This document shows, piece after piece, positions 1,999 through 13,919 of a DNA stretch of 21,499 nt; the first letter of the stretch is position 1, and each line of letters opens with the position of its first letter. The position numbers and the translations under genes were made by a program. The DNA is from a virus: IMG/VR virus record IMGVR_UViG_3300042319_000814, positions 1 through 21,499 of that record; one strand, written 5' to 3'. Below the pieces are notes generated by a model. The model was not told where the DNA came from. It saw only the letters and a program-made list of their open reading frames with translations, and did not search any database.

Positions 1999-2692
1999 GA
2001 CGCAAGCCGCGCGTAATGGTGTTCAATTTTTCAACGCTAACGGAGATGTTTTCGCTAACTTATTTTCAAGGTGCTGCGTGCTTATCGGATGCGTAGCACC
2101 TACACCAGAAGCCGCCATCGTTCTCGCTAATTTCCTGCGCGATCACAAGCCTCTTGTTTATGACACCGAGTTATTATTAGCAGTTGAACTGAACGTTGCA
2201 GGCAAGTACCCAAGCAGGACAGAGCATTATAATAGTTTTGATGCTTCTTACTGCGGGCAAGTTTTGGAGAAATTTATCGAGTACAAAAGAGAGCTGCATT
2301 TAAAGGAAGCACGCCAACCAAAATTAAACGAGGAAACAAAATTGCTTTCAGAGCCTACCTCCGACGATAGCTTTGAAAAAATTATTCAATCAGACATCGA
2401 TAATTTTAGAGAGGGTAAAAGTATGCTCGCGGCTCAGACACTTGCGCCATTTGTTGTAGATTATTTAGCGTCCAAAGGACGATTGGAACACTTGACAGAC
2501 GAGACACTTATTAAGTGGCAAATTGAAGCCAAAGAAAACATTTTTAGAAATTACCCAGACAAGTGGACTCGCGGAAAAGTTCAACGATTAAAAAACGAAA
2601 ATCATCCATTGTATAACGAGTTTCAAAAATCCGTATTGATGGAACGAAAAAGAATTATTTATTTCAACTACCTAAAAGAAAATTTAAAATGA
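1916..2692 (+). CDS. Conserved Bacteroidota phage protein, replication block, unknown function
   Basis: This 258-residue protein shows an N-terminal region with PTPEAAIVLANFLRDH, then YDTELLLAVELNVAGKYPS and SFDASYCGQVLEKFIEYKRE. I recognise this arrangement from proteins next to replication genes in Bacteroidota phages and conjugative elements, but I know no established function. The C-terminal half is helical and charged, ending in a Lys/Arg-rich stretch. The start at 1916 follows an A-rich leader but overlaps the previous gene. An in-frame ATG at 1982 would reduce the overlap to 17 bases. The stop overlaps the next start (ATGA). A helicase-loader-like role is possible but not shown. Confidence 0.7.
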   Translation: MEQIKSEVATLAKDSTLCVTHLMAELNKTQAARNGVQFFNANGDVFANLFSRCCVLIGCVAPTPEAAIVLANFLRDHKPLVYDTELLLAVELNVAGKYPSRTEHYNSFDASYCGQVLEKFIEYKRELHLKEARQPKLNEETKLLSEPTSDDSFEKIIQSDIDNFREGKSMLAAQTLAPFVVDYLASKGRLEHLTDETLIKWQIEAKENIFRNYPDKWTRGKVQRLKNENHPLYNEFQKSVLMERKRIIYFNYLKENLK

Positions 2693-2973
2693 ACGGATCA
2701 CACTACAACACGACGATGGAACACGCTCCAATACTTAATGTTTTGGAATCACGCGCGAGACATCAAGAGAAAATCATTATTGATTTATTCAAGCGTTTTC
2801 AATCTCTAACTCCATCGCAAGTTTATCAATTAGTTAAACAACAGTACCCATTGACAAGTGTTCGTCGCGCGATTACTAACTTAACTGGCGCAGGGGAGTT
2901 GATTAAAACGGATCAAAAGAAAATCGGCATCTACGGGCGTAGTGAATACGTTTGGAAAAAAGCAGGATTATGA
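2689..2973 (+). CDS. Winged-helix DNA-binding protein, candidate small terminase subunit
   Basis: Residues about 25-90 read as a winged helix-turn-helix: helix IIIDLFKRFQ, then LTPSQVYQLVKQQYPLTSVR as the helix-turn-helix, RRAITNLTGAGELIKT as the recognition helix and following strand, and a short wing ending in YVW. The gene overlaps the large terminase gene by four bases (ATGA), the usual place for a small terminase, which would recognise phage DNA for packaging. The protein is shorter than most small terminases and has no obvious oligomerisation domain, so a transcription regulator is an alternative. The DNA-binding fold is fairly sure; the packaging role is inferred from position. Confidence 0.7.
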   Translation: MNGSHYNTTMEHAPILNVLESRARHQEKIIIDLFKRFQSLTPSQVYQLVKQQYPLTSVRRAITNLTGAGELIKTDQKKIGIYGRSEYVWKKAGL

Positions 2974-4289
2974 TAGAAACAACTTCGGTTAAATACCATC
3001 CAAAGCAAATTGAAGCACTGAAATATCTTAGCGCGAAAAGTGATGTGTCTAAGATTCTTTATGGCGGTGGCGTTTTCTCCGGTAAATCTTTTTTTGGATG
3101 CGATTGGCAGATTAAAAGACGGCTTAAGTACCCCAACACAAAAGGACTCATCGGTCGAGCTGAGTTAAAGAAGTTGAGGTTGTCTACTATGCAGACATTT
3201 TTTGAACTGCTGACTGTTTACAACATTAAGCCCGGTATACACTACACATACAATGGACAAGACCACGTCATTAAATGGTACAATGGAAGCCAAACGATAT
3301 TAATGGATTTGGCTGATATGCCAAGTGATCCCGACTTCCAGAGATTTGGATCCATAGAAATAACAGACTATTTCATCGATGAGGCTGCAGAGGTGTCCAA
3401 ACGTTGTGTAGACATTTTACACTCGCGCGTGAGGTATCGATTAATAAACGATAAGCCTAAAGGATTAATGACCTGCAATCCATCGAAAGGATGGCTTTAC
3501 AATGAGTTTTATTTACCAAATAAGAATGGAGAATTGAGTGCAGAGAAAGCATTTGTAAAAGCCCTGCCAACTGACAACCCGTATATGTCGGAGAGTTACT
3601 ACAAGAACCTGCTATTGCTTCCACCGCACGACCAAGAACGCTTGTTAAAAGGAAATTGGGAGTTTGATGACGATGCATCCAAGATGTTTTTCACCAACGA
3701 TCTCAATGCTATGTTTCGTCAAGAACCTGCAACTGGAAAGAAATTCATTACTGCAGACATTGCTCGACTTGGTGAGGACAAAACAGTTGTAATTTTATGG
3801 GATGAGTTGACTGTTGTACAAATTACCACTCTTGAAAAAAAACGAATTGATGAGATTTGTGAATTTATTCGTGGTATGCGCGACATTCACCAAGTGCCGT
3901 TAAAGAATATAATTTGTGACGAGGATGGTTTGGGCGGCGGTGTTGTCGATACGTTAAAATGTACTGGGTTTAAAAATGGATCTGCGGCAACCAAACCGAA
4001 GGATTACGCGAATTTAAAATCCGAGTGTTATTTTCTTTTGGCGAATTATGTAAGCGGTGGTAAAATAGCCGTAAATTTAAGCGGCGATGTGACTGAGATT
4101 AAAAATAGAATAATTCAAGAGTTTGAAACAATTCGAAGGGCTAATATGGACAAGGACACCCGCCTTAGCGTTGTGGGTAAAAAAGAAATAAAAGCAAAAT
4201 ATAGCTTCTCTCCAGACCACGCAGACGCGATGATGATGCGTATGTACTACGAGCTTCATCCGAATAGAGGAAACTATATGCTCAGATAA
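2970..4289 (+). CDS. terL: Phage terminase large subunit (ATPase-nuclease)
   Basis: This is the packaging motor that cuts concatemeric phage DNA and pumps it into the prohead through the portal. With the ATG at 2970 the protein has 439 residues, normal for the family. Walker A is GGGVFSGKS (32-40) and Walker B is YFIDEAAE with acidic residues D137 and E138. The RNase H-like nuclease has acidic residues at D263 (ITADIARLGEDK), D317 (IICDEDGLGGG) and D416/D419 (FSPDHADAMM). An in-frame TTG at 2952 lies inside the previous gene and is less likely. Unusually, it sits on the strand opposite to the portal and capsid genes, at the end of the replication block. Confidence 0.96.
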   Translation: MIETTSVKYHPKQIEALKYLSAKSDVSKILYGGGVFSGKSFFGCDWQIKRRLKYPNTKGLIGRAELKKLRLSTMQTFFELLTVYNIKPGIHYTYNGQDHVIKWYNGSQTILMDLADMPSDPDFQRFGSIEITDYFIDEAAEVSKRCVDILHSRVRYRLINDKPKGLMTCNPSKGWLYNEFYLPNKNGELSAEKAFVKALPTDNPYMSESYYKNLLLLPPHDQERLLKGNWEFDDDASKMFFTNDLNAMFRQEPATGKKFITADIARLGEDKTVVILWDELTVVQITTLEKKRIDEICEFIRGMRDIHQVPLKNIICDEDGLGGGVVDTLKCTGFKNGSAATKPKDYANLKSECYFLLANYVSGGKIAVNLSGDVTEIKNRIIQEFETIRRANMDKDTRLSVVGKKEIKAKYSFSPDHADAMMMRMYYELHPNRGNYMLR

Positions 4290-4940: not shown

Positions 4941-5936
4941 ATGAAAAACACACAAGCAACGCTTCAAGCGTTAAGGCTACCCGATAGCCTAGCTCCATTC
5001 GATGGGTTGATAATCGAAAAGATTACCAATACACCAACGATTATCGAAACAATTAACTACGATAAAAGAATCAATGGCAAGCCAACCATTACAACCGAAG
5101 TCGTATTTAAACAAACAAAGGATCTTACTAAATCCTATTTTCTCAACTGGATTCAACAAAGAATCAACCATCCAAAATCCGTTATCGGTAGTGAACTTGA
5201 AAACGACTATTTTTTTGGATACGAGCGTTACGAAGGAATTATTCCAATCGGCTATTTAGCAGGGAAAACAGTGACATTCGCGGGATCAAAAATCCAAATT
5301 AGCGGAGATGGTGTTTACAAGCAAATGACAATAACATCTAATATCGGCAGAAACGTTAACGCGCAAGGTCAACCTCTTGCTTTTGAAGATTGGCAGATGA
5401 CTGTAAGACGTGAACGCGTTATTGTTTTAGGCGGAAAGTCTCTCAAGCCAACTATTTCTAACCCAACTTTTAAAGTTACTGAGGTAGCAGCTATGTTAGG
5501 CGTCACGCGAAATCAACTTGATGAGTTGTGTTCTGAGATTTATAAAATCGACACCAATGTTGACACTACAAAGAACATTATCTCCACCGCTTGTTATGCG
5601 ACATTTAAACGTGTTGGAACAGAACTCACGGCTACTATGCACGTTTTGTACAATGGTCTTGAAAGTAAACCCTCTGGATTAATCACGAGCTATGGAAAAC
5701 AGTACCCCGGACACGTCACTCGTTGGAGACTATACAACGGCTCAAATGACAATGTCTCGTATGGCGCAAGTGAGGTAGTGAGTGAACAAATTACTTATAC
5801 CATTACCGACGAAAAAACAATTGATGGAGCGACACTATGGGCGACATTTGAAGAGTTACCCGCGCAAGGCAAAGGATGGGGAAGTGAAGCTATTTATTTG
5901 CTTATAGATGGGCAGGATCCGCTGAGAACGTATTAA
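4941..5936 (+). CDS. Unrecognised 331-aa protein in the accessory cluster
   Basis: I do not recognise this protein. It appears soluble, without a signal peptide or membrane helix. The first 140 residues and the last 110 look rich in beta strands. A central segment (about 175-200, FKVTEVAAMLGVTRNQLDEL) resembles a helix-turn-helix. The ATG follows an A-rich leader typical of Bacteroidota genes and lies 20 bases after the previous stop. It sits between terminase-linked small genes and a DUF2829/Tad2 gene, so an accessory role, possibly against host defence, is as plausible as a structural one. No catalytic residues can be named. Confidence 0.7.
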   Translation: MKNTQATLQALRLPDSLAPFDGLIIEKITNTPTIIETINYDKRINGKPTITTEVVFKQTKDLTKSYFLNWIQQRINHPKSVIGSELENDYFFGYERYEGIIPIGYLAGKTVTFAGSKIQISGDGVYKQMTITSNIGRNVNAQGQPLAFEDWQMTVRRERVIVLGGKSLKPTISNPTFKVTEVAAMLGVTRNQLDELCSEIYKIDTNVDTTKNIISTACYATFKRVGTELTATMHVLYNGLESKPSGLITSYGKQYPGHVTRWRLYNGSNDNVSYGASEVVSEQITYTITDEKTIDGATLWATFEELPAQGKGWGSEAIYLLIDGQDPLRTY

Positions 5937-8370: not shown

Positions 8371-10503
8371 TTAAGCGTATTTAAGTGATCCGCGTGTTGG
8401 TGTATTTATTGGGGCAACACCTTCAACCCCCTTTTGAGGAACGAATGGAACGTTAGCTACACGAACATCGTTTTTTAATCCATCGTTAGGCAAAAACTTA
8501 CCGCCTTCGCGCTTACGGAAGTAGATTCTGCGCTCCCATTTATGGTGACAATAAACACCACCTTTCCATTCAAAAATTGAATAGTTGCTTGAGCCTTGTG
8601 GGGCGAATTGACCATTTACGCCATCGTTACCCATTTCAATAATGTCCTCGTATCTAAATACGTTTCCTGCTTGCGCTAATGCGACCATTTGCTTGCAAAA
8701 CTGTCTACTATCTTGCGAAATGTTTTGAGAATAAGAATAGCGCAATTTGTATAGCCCACTATCACCCCAACGACTTCTTTCATCTCCGTTAGCGTAAGAG
8801 CCTACACTTGCTAATTCAAATGTTTTCTTGAATAAATTATCTATGTAATTCTGCTCCTCTTCAATGGTGTCAAATGCAGGAACGATAATGTCCTCGTCGT
8901 ACTCTTCCCACTCATCGAGGTCAATTTGTTCGGCAACCGTTTTTAAATAATCGATTGCTCTCTCGTCATCAAAATCTGATTGATGTGTGCTGCAACATAC
9001 ACTGTGCAACTCTTCTTCTCTGTATCTCTCAACTATTCTTGATGCCCAATCTCTACCAGCATCACCACCCCACAACTGCCAAGCAATTCTTCCTGCAGTT
9101 GGGAAACCATCCTCTCCATCGTTCCATCCATTAGCTTCTTTGTCGACTTCGTGGCGAGAGAAGTAACTATTCATCCTTTTGACAGTGTCGTAAGAAAGAT
9201 TCCTTTTGTTGCTGATGTCTCTTGCACGAGCAACGCCAACCTCAGTACCACCACGACCAAATTCTTCTCGCCATTTTAAGCCAAGTTCTGCTTCAGCAGC
9301 CATCTCGTTTGTTGGCTCAAAACTATCCGGTATTTCTAAATTAACTTTTTTTTTTTGAAGAGATACTTGTTTCAATGGATCAACAAAAGTGATTTTTGTA
9401 TCAATCCCTGCCACTTGCATTATGTACTCAATCGTTTCCGCTATCATTCGACGATACGGCTCGATTCGTTTCTCCATAAAAATTTTAAGACCTTCCGTCA
9501 TTTCATCTGCATTGGATGAAAACCCGTTGGGATTTTTAACACCAAATAAAAGAGGAGTAGTCACCCCGTGACTCACCATCGTTGCTTCTACCGATTGAGT
9601 GGATAGGTATTCGTATTGTTTATCCGCATCTGATAAAGGGAACGTTTCGAATGTAGCCGCAACATCTTTGTTGTCATTAAAAAGAAAAATAGCCTTACCC
9701 GCATTTCTCGCTCCACTCATTTTGTTTTCAAAATCCCTTGTCATCAAATCCGCGCCGTTGCCATCTGGTTGCCCGTTGTTAAACTGCACGATGATGGATG
9801 GAAAGAATCCATTCATAATGTTGTTGACGTGGTAAAGACCAATTTGTCTTGAAAGTTCGATATAGTTCAAACCACCGATGTAATCGGGTTTAGGATAGTA
9901 CATAGAACCTACCGCTTGACGGAAATTATACACCGCGTAACGCACGGGCGCATCCTCTTCATTCTCACTTGGCAGTTTTGTAAATAATGGGATAAATACG
10001 GGTTTGTTTTGCTTCTTAGTAGTGTTTTTCCAATCGCGCGAATACCACACGCCATTTATCTTATCAGTCTCCTCTGAATAACTAACGCGACAATTCTCAA
10101 AAGGCAAGTGATTAACACGAGCCACACCTTTTTTATCGGCAGTTAAAATTATCTCTAAGTAAAATCCCCCTTGAATCTTCAAGTCACTACACACGTTGTC
10201 TATGTGTTTACTTGTTCCCCACATAGATAATTGGATGGATCCTGCTCCGGTAGCATACAAACCATCTCCAACAATCATTGAAGCTATTGCATTACATAAC
10301 GCGTTATGATAAGGCGCACTATAATACAAGTCGATGAGATAATTGGGATAGGCATTGTCTGCGCCATAAGTCACCCAACCCTTTTTGTCCTCTGTTTCTC
10401 GCGTCGATACGGCTTCATACATAGCCATATTAACCACCATCGTTTTATTCTGCGAACTTGATGGTTGGTGTTCCGCTATCTGAGTAAGTTGGTTGTTCTC
10501 CAT
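8371..10503 (-). CDS. Portal protein with fused C-terminal head-morphogenesis-like extension
   Basis: Residues about 40-380 form a phage portal domain (GWVTYGADNAYPNYLIDLYY, later HGVTTPLLFGV and MTEGLKIFMEKRIEPY), the ring through which DNA enters. The rest is an extension of about 320 residues. One block (about 390-492) has ARARDISNKRNLSYDTVKRM and GRIAWQLWGGDAGRDWA, a recurrent phage virion module of unknown role. A second (about 545-710) has SRWGDSGLYKLRYSYS, YCHHKWERRIY and PINTPTRGSL, as at the C-terminus of MuF-like minor head proteins. An A11 run lies at the junction of the portal and the extension. The start may instead be the ATG at 10440, which avoids a 59-base overlap with the upstream gene. 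Confidence 0.88.
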   Translation of the reverse strand: MENNQLTQIAEHQPSSSQNKTMVVNMAMYEAVSTRETEDKKGWVTYGADNAYPNYLIDLYYSAPYHNALCNAIASMIVGDGLYATGAGSIQLSMWGTSKHIDNVCSDLKIQGGFYLEIILTADKKGVARVNHLPFENCRVSYSEETDKINGVWYSRDWKNTTKKQNKPVFIPLFTKLPSENEEDAPVRYAVYNFRQAVGSMYYPKPDYIGGLNYIELSRQIGLYHVNNIMNGFFPSIIVQFNNGQPDGNGADLMTRDFENKMSGARNAGKAIFLFNDNKDVAATFETFPLSDADKQYEYLSTQSVEATMVSHGVTTPLLFGVKNPNGFSSNADEMTEGLKIFMEKRIEPYRRMIAETIEYIMQVAGIDTKITFVDPLKQVSLQKKKVNLEIPDSFEPTNEMAAEAELGLKWREEFGRGGTEVGVARARDISNKRNLSYDTVKRMNSYFSRHEVDKEANGWNDGEDGFPTAGRIAWQLWGGDAGRDWASRIVERYREEELHSVCCSTHQSDFDDERAIDYLKTVAEQIDLDEWEEYDEDIIVPAFDTIEEEQNYIDNLFKKTFELASVGSYANGDERSRWGDSGLYKLRYSYSQNISQDSRQFCKQMVALAQAGNVFRYEDIIEMGNDGVNGQFAPQGSSNYSIFEWKGGVYCHHKWERRIYFRKREGGKFLPNDGLKNDVRVANVPFVPQKGVEGVAPINTPTRGSLKYA
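9346..9356 (-). other. A11 homopolymer, possible slippage site in the portal gene
   Basis: On the coding strand eleven A residues span the codons CAA AAA AAA AAA (Gln383-Lys386). One added A gives Lys-Ser-stop and one lost A gives Leu-Ile-stop, each ending the protein at 387 residues. This is the longest homopolymer I found in the window; other runs reach eight. Confidence 0.6.
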
Positions 10504-13337: not shown

Positions 13338-13919
13338 TTACAAATTTCCCTTAATGATATTATCGATTTCAGATAAAATTTTCTGTTCTGTGCTGCAAAG
13401 ATTTTCAATGGCATCAAATAGCCCCTCGATACTAAAACCTTTTACTTCTCCGTTTTTAACTTGCGCCCACACATCATCATTGTCAACTTTATTGCCTACT
13501 ATCCAAGAGCCTATTGGCGCGTCGATTCCGAGTTTAGAAGATTTATCCTCTTCAAATTCTCTAATCCAAGACTCAACAACTGTGCATCCCGCAACTTTTA
13601 TTTCGTGTTGTAATGTGTGTTCGCGTTGGTTGCCTTGTTTTAAATAAGCGTATGCCGCAGCTCTGATTGTTTCTTTTGAAAACTTAATGAAGTACTCTTC
13701 TCCGGTTAATTGGTCAATTCGCGGGATTAGTTTGTCTGGTATAAGTACCGCCCCATAAACCATCCTGCGCTCTTCGTCAATTGACTCTAACTTTATTTCG
13801 TGCTTGGACAAATGAATGAAATTAATTTCTATCGCGGGATCGGTGACAAACGAAATTGCGTAAACACCGAAGTTCCCGTCCTCATCCATTAACATCTCTT
13901 TTACTTTTCTTTTTTCCAT
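13338..13919 (-). CDS. Prohead protease, XkdF-like (S78_2 type)
   Basis: A serine protease that matures the prohead. The C-terminal half carries the XkdF-like pattern: REHTLQHEIKVAGCTVVESW (99-118), where H101 or H105 and S117 are the likely catalytic pair, then GSWIVGNKVDNDDVWAQVK and GEVKGFSIEG (158-166). The N-terminal residues DGNFGVYAISFVTDPAIEIN are typical for the family. It precedes the scaffold and capsid genes, as expected, but follows the tape measure gene by two bases, which is unusual. The family assignment is confident; the choice of histidine is not certain from sequence alone. Confidence 0.88.
   Translation of the reverse strand: MEKRKVKEMLMDEDGNFGVYAISFVTDPAIEINFIHLSKHEIKLESIDEERRMVYGAVLIPDKLIPRIDQLTGEEYFIKFSKETIRAAAYAYLKQGNQREHTLQHEIKVAGCTVVESWIREFEEDKSSKLGIDAPIGSWIVGNKVDNDDVWAQVKNGEVKGFSIEGLFDAIENLCSTEQKILSEIDNIIKGNL

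Follow-up and report, generated by a model that had tools for sequence, protein, structure and literature searches.

We analysed a virus record of 21.5 kb over its whole length (hereafter the window), to which all portal coordinates refer. A block of head-and-tail genes lies on its minus strand and includes a long ORF whose product is identified as a portal protein by profile matches across its core. Residues 37-385 matched the PHROG portal families phrog_33693 (2.3e-62) and phrog_11226 (2.2e-35), and the match of the ORF to PF04860 was weak (18.5 bits, under the Pfam cut-off of 39.1). As the original prediction had stated, an uninterrupted run of 11 A residues separates the full portal core from an extension of about 320 residues (Table 1). 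The run is read as CAA AAA AAA AAA GTT, which codes for Q383, three Lys residues and V387, and no other run of 11 A residues is found in the window.

With one additional A, the reading would become CAA AAA AAA AAA AGT TAA, giving a protein of 387 residues with the C-terminus KKKS, in agreement with the predicted Lys-Ser-stop ending. With one A fewer, it would become CAA AAA AAA AAG TTA ATT TAG, whose product ends in KKKLI and has 388 residues rather than the 387 initially announced. Since the core matches cover residues 37-385 and the phrog_11226 model is 388 positions long, both truncated forms would have the length of a normal portal, as had been proposed.

Table 1. Features of the portal gene and of its A-run junction, with the evidence for each.
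Feature	Position	Strand	Evidence
Portal gene, core and fused C-terminal extension	8371..10503	-	710 codons plus stop; PHROG portal families
Portal core, residues 1-380	9364..10503	-	PHROG matches over residues 37-385; alignment of relatives
A11 run, part of CAA AAA AAA AAA G	9346..9356	-	Sequence; A10-A12 in 134/153 relatives; retained through phase and codon changes
TAA stop, frame after gain of one A (387-aa portal)	9341..9343	-	Sequence; early off-frame stops enriched in relatives
TAG stop, frame after loss of one A (388-aa portal)	9336..9338	-	Sequence; early off-frame stops enriched in relatives
Optional mobile module, ~residues 405-505	8989..9291	-	phrog_2859, 9e-26; missing in some run-bearing relatives
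C-terminal domain, ~residues 505-710	8374..8991	-	Present in aligned relatives; alignments; AlphaFold pLDDT 77

The extension comprises an optional module and a C-terminal domain. Stretches similar to the module open the capsid-protein ORFs of Roseobacter phage CRP-831 and Synechococcus phage S-CBS1, and many Vibrio phage proteins contain the module too. Ten residues of the C-terminal domain are invariant among 79 sequences. A first structure model was discarded as too poor (pLDDT 61), and the AlphaFold model in Table 1 is of medium confidence. Foldseek searches of BFVD with the domain revealed similarities to parts of XkdF head-protease proteins and to one portal (E down to 5e-9), and we identified no credible Pfam match, no PDB sequence match and no PDB fold match for it. 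The XkdF-named proteins that harbour the domain belong to uncultured phages and are of the head maturation protease type. With its 193 residues, the XkdF protein of the window (13338-13919) would have little room for such a domain. The C-terminal domain seems to be a head-assembly module that is mobile among head proteins. In phages 11b and phi10:1, a Mu-F-like head gene follows the portal gene, and no separate gene of this type was identified next to the portal gene of the window. By inference, the extension might play a minor-head role.

We collected 153 IMG/VR contigs with related portals in two scans, with identities down to 28-30%. The sampling was not biased towards KKK, because the search peptides excluded the KKK stretch. 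An uninterrupted run of 10 to 12 A residues occupies the junction in 134 of these relatives (A10 in 96, A11 in 36 and A12 in two), and in none of the 134 is the frame lost. All 129 run-bearing contigs with enough downstream sequence are read in frame through the extension, so that plain reading gives the long form and the short form would require a slip. The run is also kept in relatives that lack the mobile module or have an extra helical domain ahead of the junction. The same A11 is present in four near-identical contigs from other metagenomes, which makes five with the record analysed here.

Among the relatives devoid of the run, two (L065 and L069) end at or before the site, and the others have no run or at most nine A residues. 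In L065, an A9 (5380-5388) is found at the junction, about 20 bases from the contig end, and the plain reading stops there; it is possibly a real short allele or an end-of-contig error. The portal linkers of L105 and L225 contain an A9 in phase 0, which may be a weakened or degenerate version of the putative slippage site. The run is absent and the extension fused in frame in L097, L136 and L221, which belong to the clade, and in most of the distant relatives, including the cultured Nonlabens phages P12024L/S. The portal of the latter is a single ORF with homologous core and C-terminal domains, but it has no A run (longest A6) and no KKK. As these run-less relatives keep the fused extension, the site is not universal and the short form is not required by every such phage. 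Judged from these comparisons, the putative slippage site is a conserved but dispensable trait.

We also fetched 77 further contigs using the C-terminal domain, among which the extension was not found as a separate gene. It was fused wherever the core was readable in the same frame; L182 showed a frame change, and L162-L164 and five short contigs were uninformative. Over 4.3 kb, L182 matches L037 at 99.96-100% identity, but 49 nt are missing directly before its own A11 (region 2661-3010). Its plain reading therefore stops immediately past the run, and the extension sits in the frame with one extra A, which may reflect either a naturally reversed layout or a faulty assembly. One scan of genome contigs detected no relative in cellular genomes. 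No long A run is found in the portals of cultured Bacteroidota phages whose terminases are related, and terminase relatives point to Bacteroidota as the likely hosts.

We then examined the constraint on the run using a tree of 62 portal cores, 45 of them run-bearing tips; this was a quick tree with some weak forks. The reading phase of the run has changed at least 12 times on the tree and its first codon at least 18 times (GAA, CAA, TTA, GTA, GCA, CTA, ATA, TCA and GGA), with the run remaining at 10 or more A residues throughout these changes of phase and flanking codons. The contexts found were GAA AAA AAA AAG, CAA AAA AAA AAA G, the series TTA/GTA/GCA/CTA/ATA/TCA/GGA AAA AAA AAA G, GAT AAA AAA AAA AAG and CAA AAA AAA AAT. 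Homologues encoding these Lys residues with AAG codons and lacking the run, which the original prediction had named as evidence against slippage, were not found within the run-bearing clade. There, AAG is used for the third Lys only, where the preceding codon supplies enough A residues for a total of at least 10, and in L098 the third codon is AAT with an A10 nonetheless kept. Given the amino acids and the genes' own codon usage, the probability of runs of at least 10 A residues is 5e-17 for 18 clusters, and 10^-19.5, 10^-12.2 and 10^-7.9 for representatives at <70, <60 and <50% identity, respectively, i.e. ~1e-8 to 1e-20 overall depending on the degree of thinning. Elsewhere in these portal genes, Lys is encoded by 405 AAA and 307 AAG codons, and only eight homopolymers of 10 or more residues occur outside the junction in the 981 kb of the 134 loci. 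The run is thus conserved at the nucleotide level past what the amino acids need, and amino-acid constraint alone is rejected by the synonymous-codon calculation.

A shift at the run would lead to a defined alternative product, with stops after one to three codons in the window and an enrichment of early stops in the relatives. Across the 45 tips, the first stop after the run lies at a median of three codons in both shifted frames, compared with ORF means of ~10 and ~15 codons and a background of ~9 and ~14 (Wilcoxon, p=5e-7 for the gain frame and p=6e-6 for the loss frame). The excess is also found among representatives at <60% identity (p=0.009 and p=0.004, respectively); of these 15 representatives, 11 reach a stop by the second codon in one frame, where 4.8 would be expected. 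At <50% identity, it persists for the loss frame (p=0.004) and is not significant for the gain frame (p=0.12).

Based on these analyses, we propose, with a probability of about 0.7, programmed slippage at the A11 run, probably by RNA polymerase, that truncates a share of the portal subunits. The conservation of the run in relatives thus lends support to the original prediction of short and long portals made by slippage. In some of the transcripts, RNA polymerase would insert or omit one A at the run. Unslipped mRNA would yield the 710-residue portal with its C-terminal module, and on slipped mRNA translation would reach an off-frame stop one to three codons on and yield a portal of 387 or 388 residues, so that one gene would supply a mixture of short and long subunits. 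We infer that slippage happens at some rate, at transcription and not at translation, and that the portal ring incorporates both products. Transcriptional slippage is associated with uninterrupted A or T runs of about nine or more residues, as found here and in the 134 relatives. Polymerase slippage fits both the closure of the two shifted frames and A10 being the commonest length, and the floor at 10 A residues in any phase, near the 9-10 bp of the RNA:DNA hybrid (PMC5009743), also favours transcription. In Escherichia coli reporters, frameshifting reached 63% on A11, 40% on A9 and 10% on A7 (PMC3711429), and large amounts of short portal are therefore plausible. Counting against this mechanism, A runs make the E. 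coli polymerase slip less than T runs do (PMC6260861), although that of the likely Bacteroidota host may differ.

Transcription is favoured over translation only tentatively. The main rival, which we regard as unlikely, is that the short portal arises at translation, when ribosomes slide or shift by -1 along the lysine AAA codons. Poly(A) causes E. coli ribosomes to slide, and a K3 stretch with an A11, as here, gave a robust truncated product (PMC4363877). However, A9 and A10 gave little sliding product in the same work, yet 96 of the 134 relatives have an A10. An in-phase slippery heptamer is likewise part of every run of at least 10 A residues (A AAA AAA for the window). Nevertheless, a -1 shift needs just A6G or A7, yet no run shorter than 10 is found among the 134, and it would leave the stops in the loss frame unexplained. 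Stimulatory elements were sought as well: downstream structure is inconsistent (mean z -0.44, and -1.5 for the fold at this locus) and an upstream Shine-Dalgarno-like motif is present in only 8 of 45 tips. Stimulated -1 frameshifting was rejected on these grounds.

The run might instead vary at the DNA level, with an A gained or lost at replication and some virions carrying short-portal genomes only. Poly(A) is slippery for DNA polymerase, and two contigs could represent such alleles, L182 with its unslipped frame closed just past the run and L065 with its A9. Nevertheless, both could be assembly faults, the long frame is kept in all 134 run-bearing contigs, with no off-frame allele among them, and run lengths differ among relatives through compensated changes and not frame loss, which makes this explanation improbable. 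We give equally little credence to ordinary constraint, whereby a Lys-Lys-Lys linker, a translation pause at the domain border or a DNA A-tract would be selected, slippage being incidental and the stops a safeguard. KKK is indeed present at the domain border in nearly all run-bearing relatives, and off-frame stops might just limit waste. However, synonymous AAG codons would preserve KKK, the joint probability of the runs is very low, and L098 keeps its A10 with AAT as the third codon. In E. coli, AAA-AAA-AAA is under-represented by a factor of 50 (PMC4363877). The run is also internal to the gene and coincides with no terminator-like site; a terminator or promoter role was considered and dropped, as nothing notable was found there. 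Lastly, homopolymers are prone to error, and a sequencing or assembly artefact hiding two separate frames had been regarded as the main alternative. It is rejected as extremely improbable, as independent contigs agree on the A11 and on the in-frame fusion, and the extension is fused in run-less relatives and cultured phages as well.

Truncated products generated by transcriptional slippage are documented for Shigella spa33 and mxiA (PMC5009743). More generally, the bacterial genes subject to such slippage (Thermus dnaX with its A9, Shigella spa13, spa33, mxiA and mxiE, and IS elements) likewise contain a conserved internal A or T run of about nine or more residues and give two products with a common N-terminus (PMC5009743, PMC3711429). 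In contrast with them, the gene described here codes for a phage head protein and its long form corresponds to the unslipped frame; slippage is here predicted from sequence. Phages also use ribosomal frameshifting to make a virion or assembly protein from one gene in two versions, short and extended, at a given ratio, as for lambda gpG/gpGT, the T3 and T7 coat proteins and Listeria PSA (PMC5009743). In those pairs, however, the shift occurs at translation, the shifted product is the extended one, and none is a portal. No earlier report of slippage in a portal was found in the literature searched, most subscription journals being outside its scope.

Portals are taken to be rings of identical subunits. 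Tentatively, and with somewhat less than even odds, the make-up of the portal ring might be set here by polymerase slippage, with only some copies in a twelve-subunit portal carrying the head-assembly module, which is related to one found elsewhere in XkdF proteases. If only some of the twelve subunits carry it, the slip rate of a homopolymer would determine how many copies of a minor head component are built into the portal. If true, a widespread group of uncultured phages would have mixed-subunit portal rings whose ratio is set during transcription. Since reading without a slip yields the long form, a gene finder or frameshift screen registers a single normal gene, and in-frame truncating slippage sites of this type may be overlooked elsewhere.
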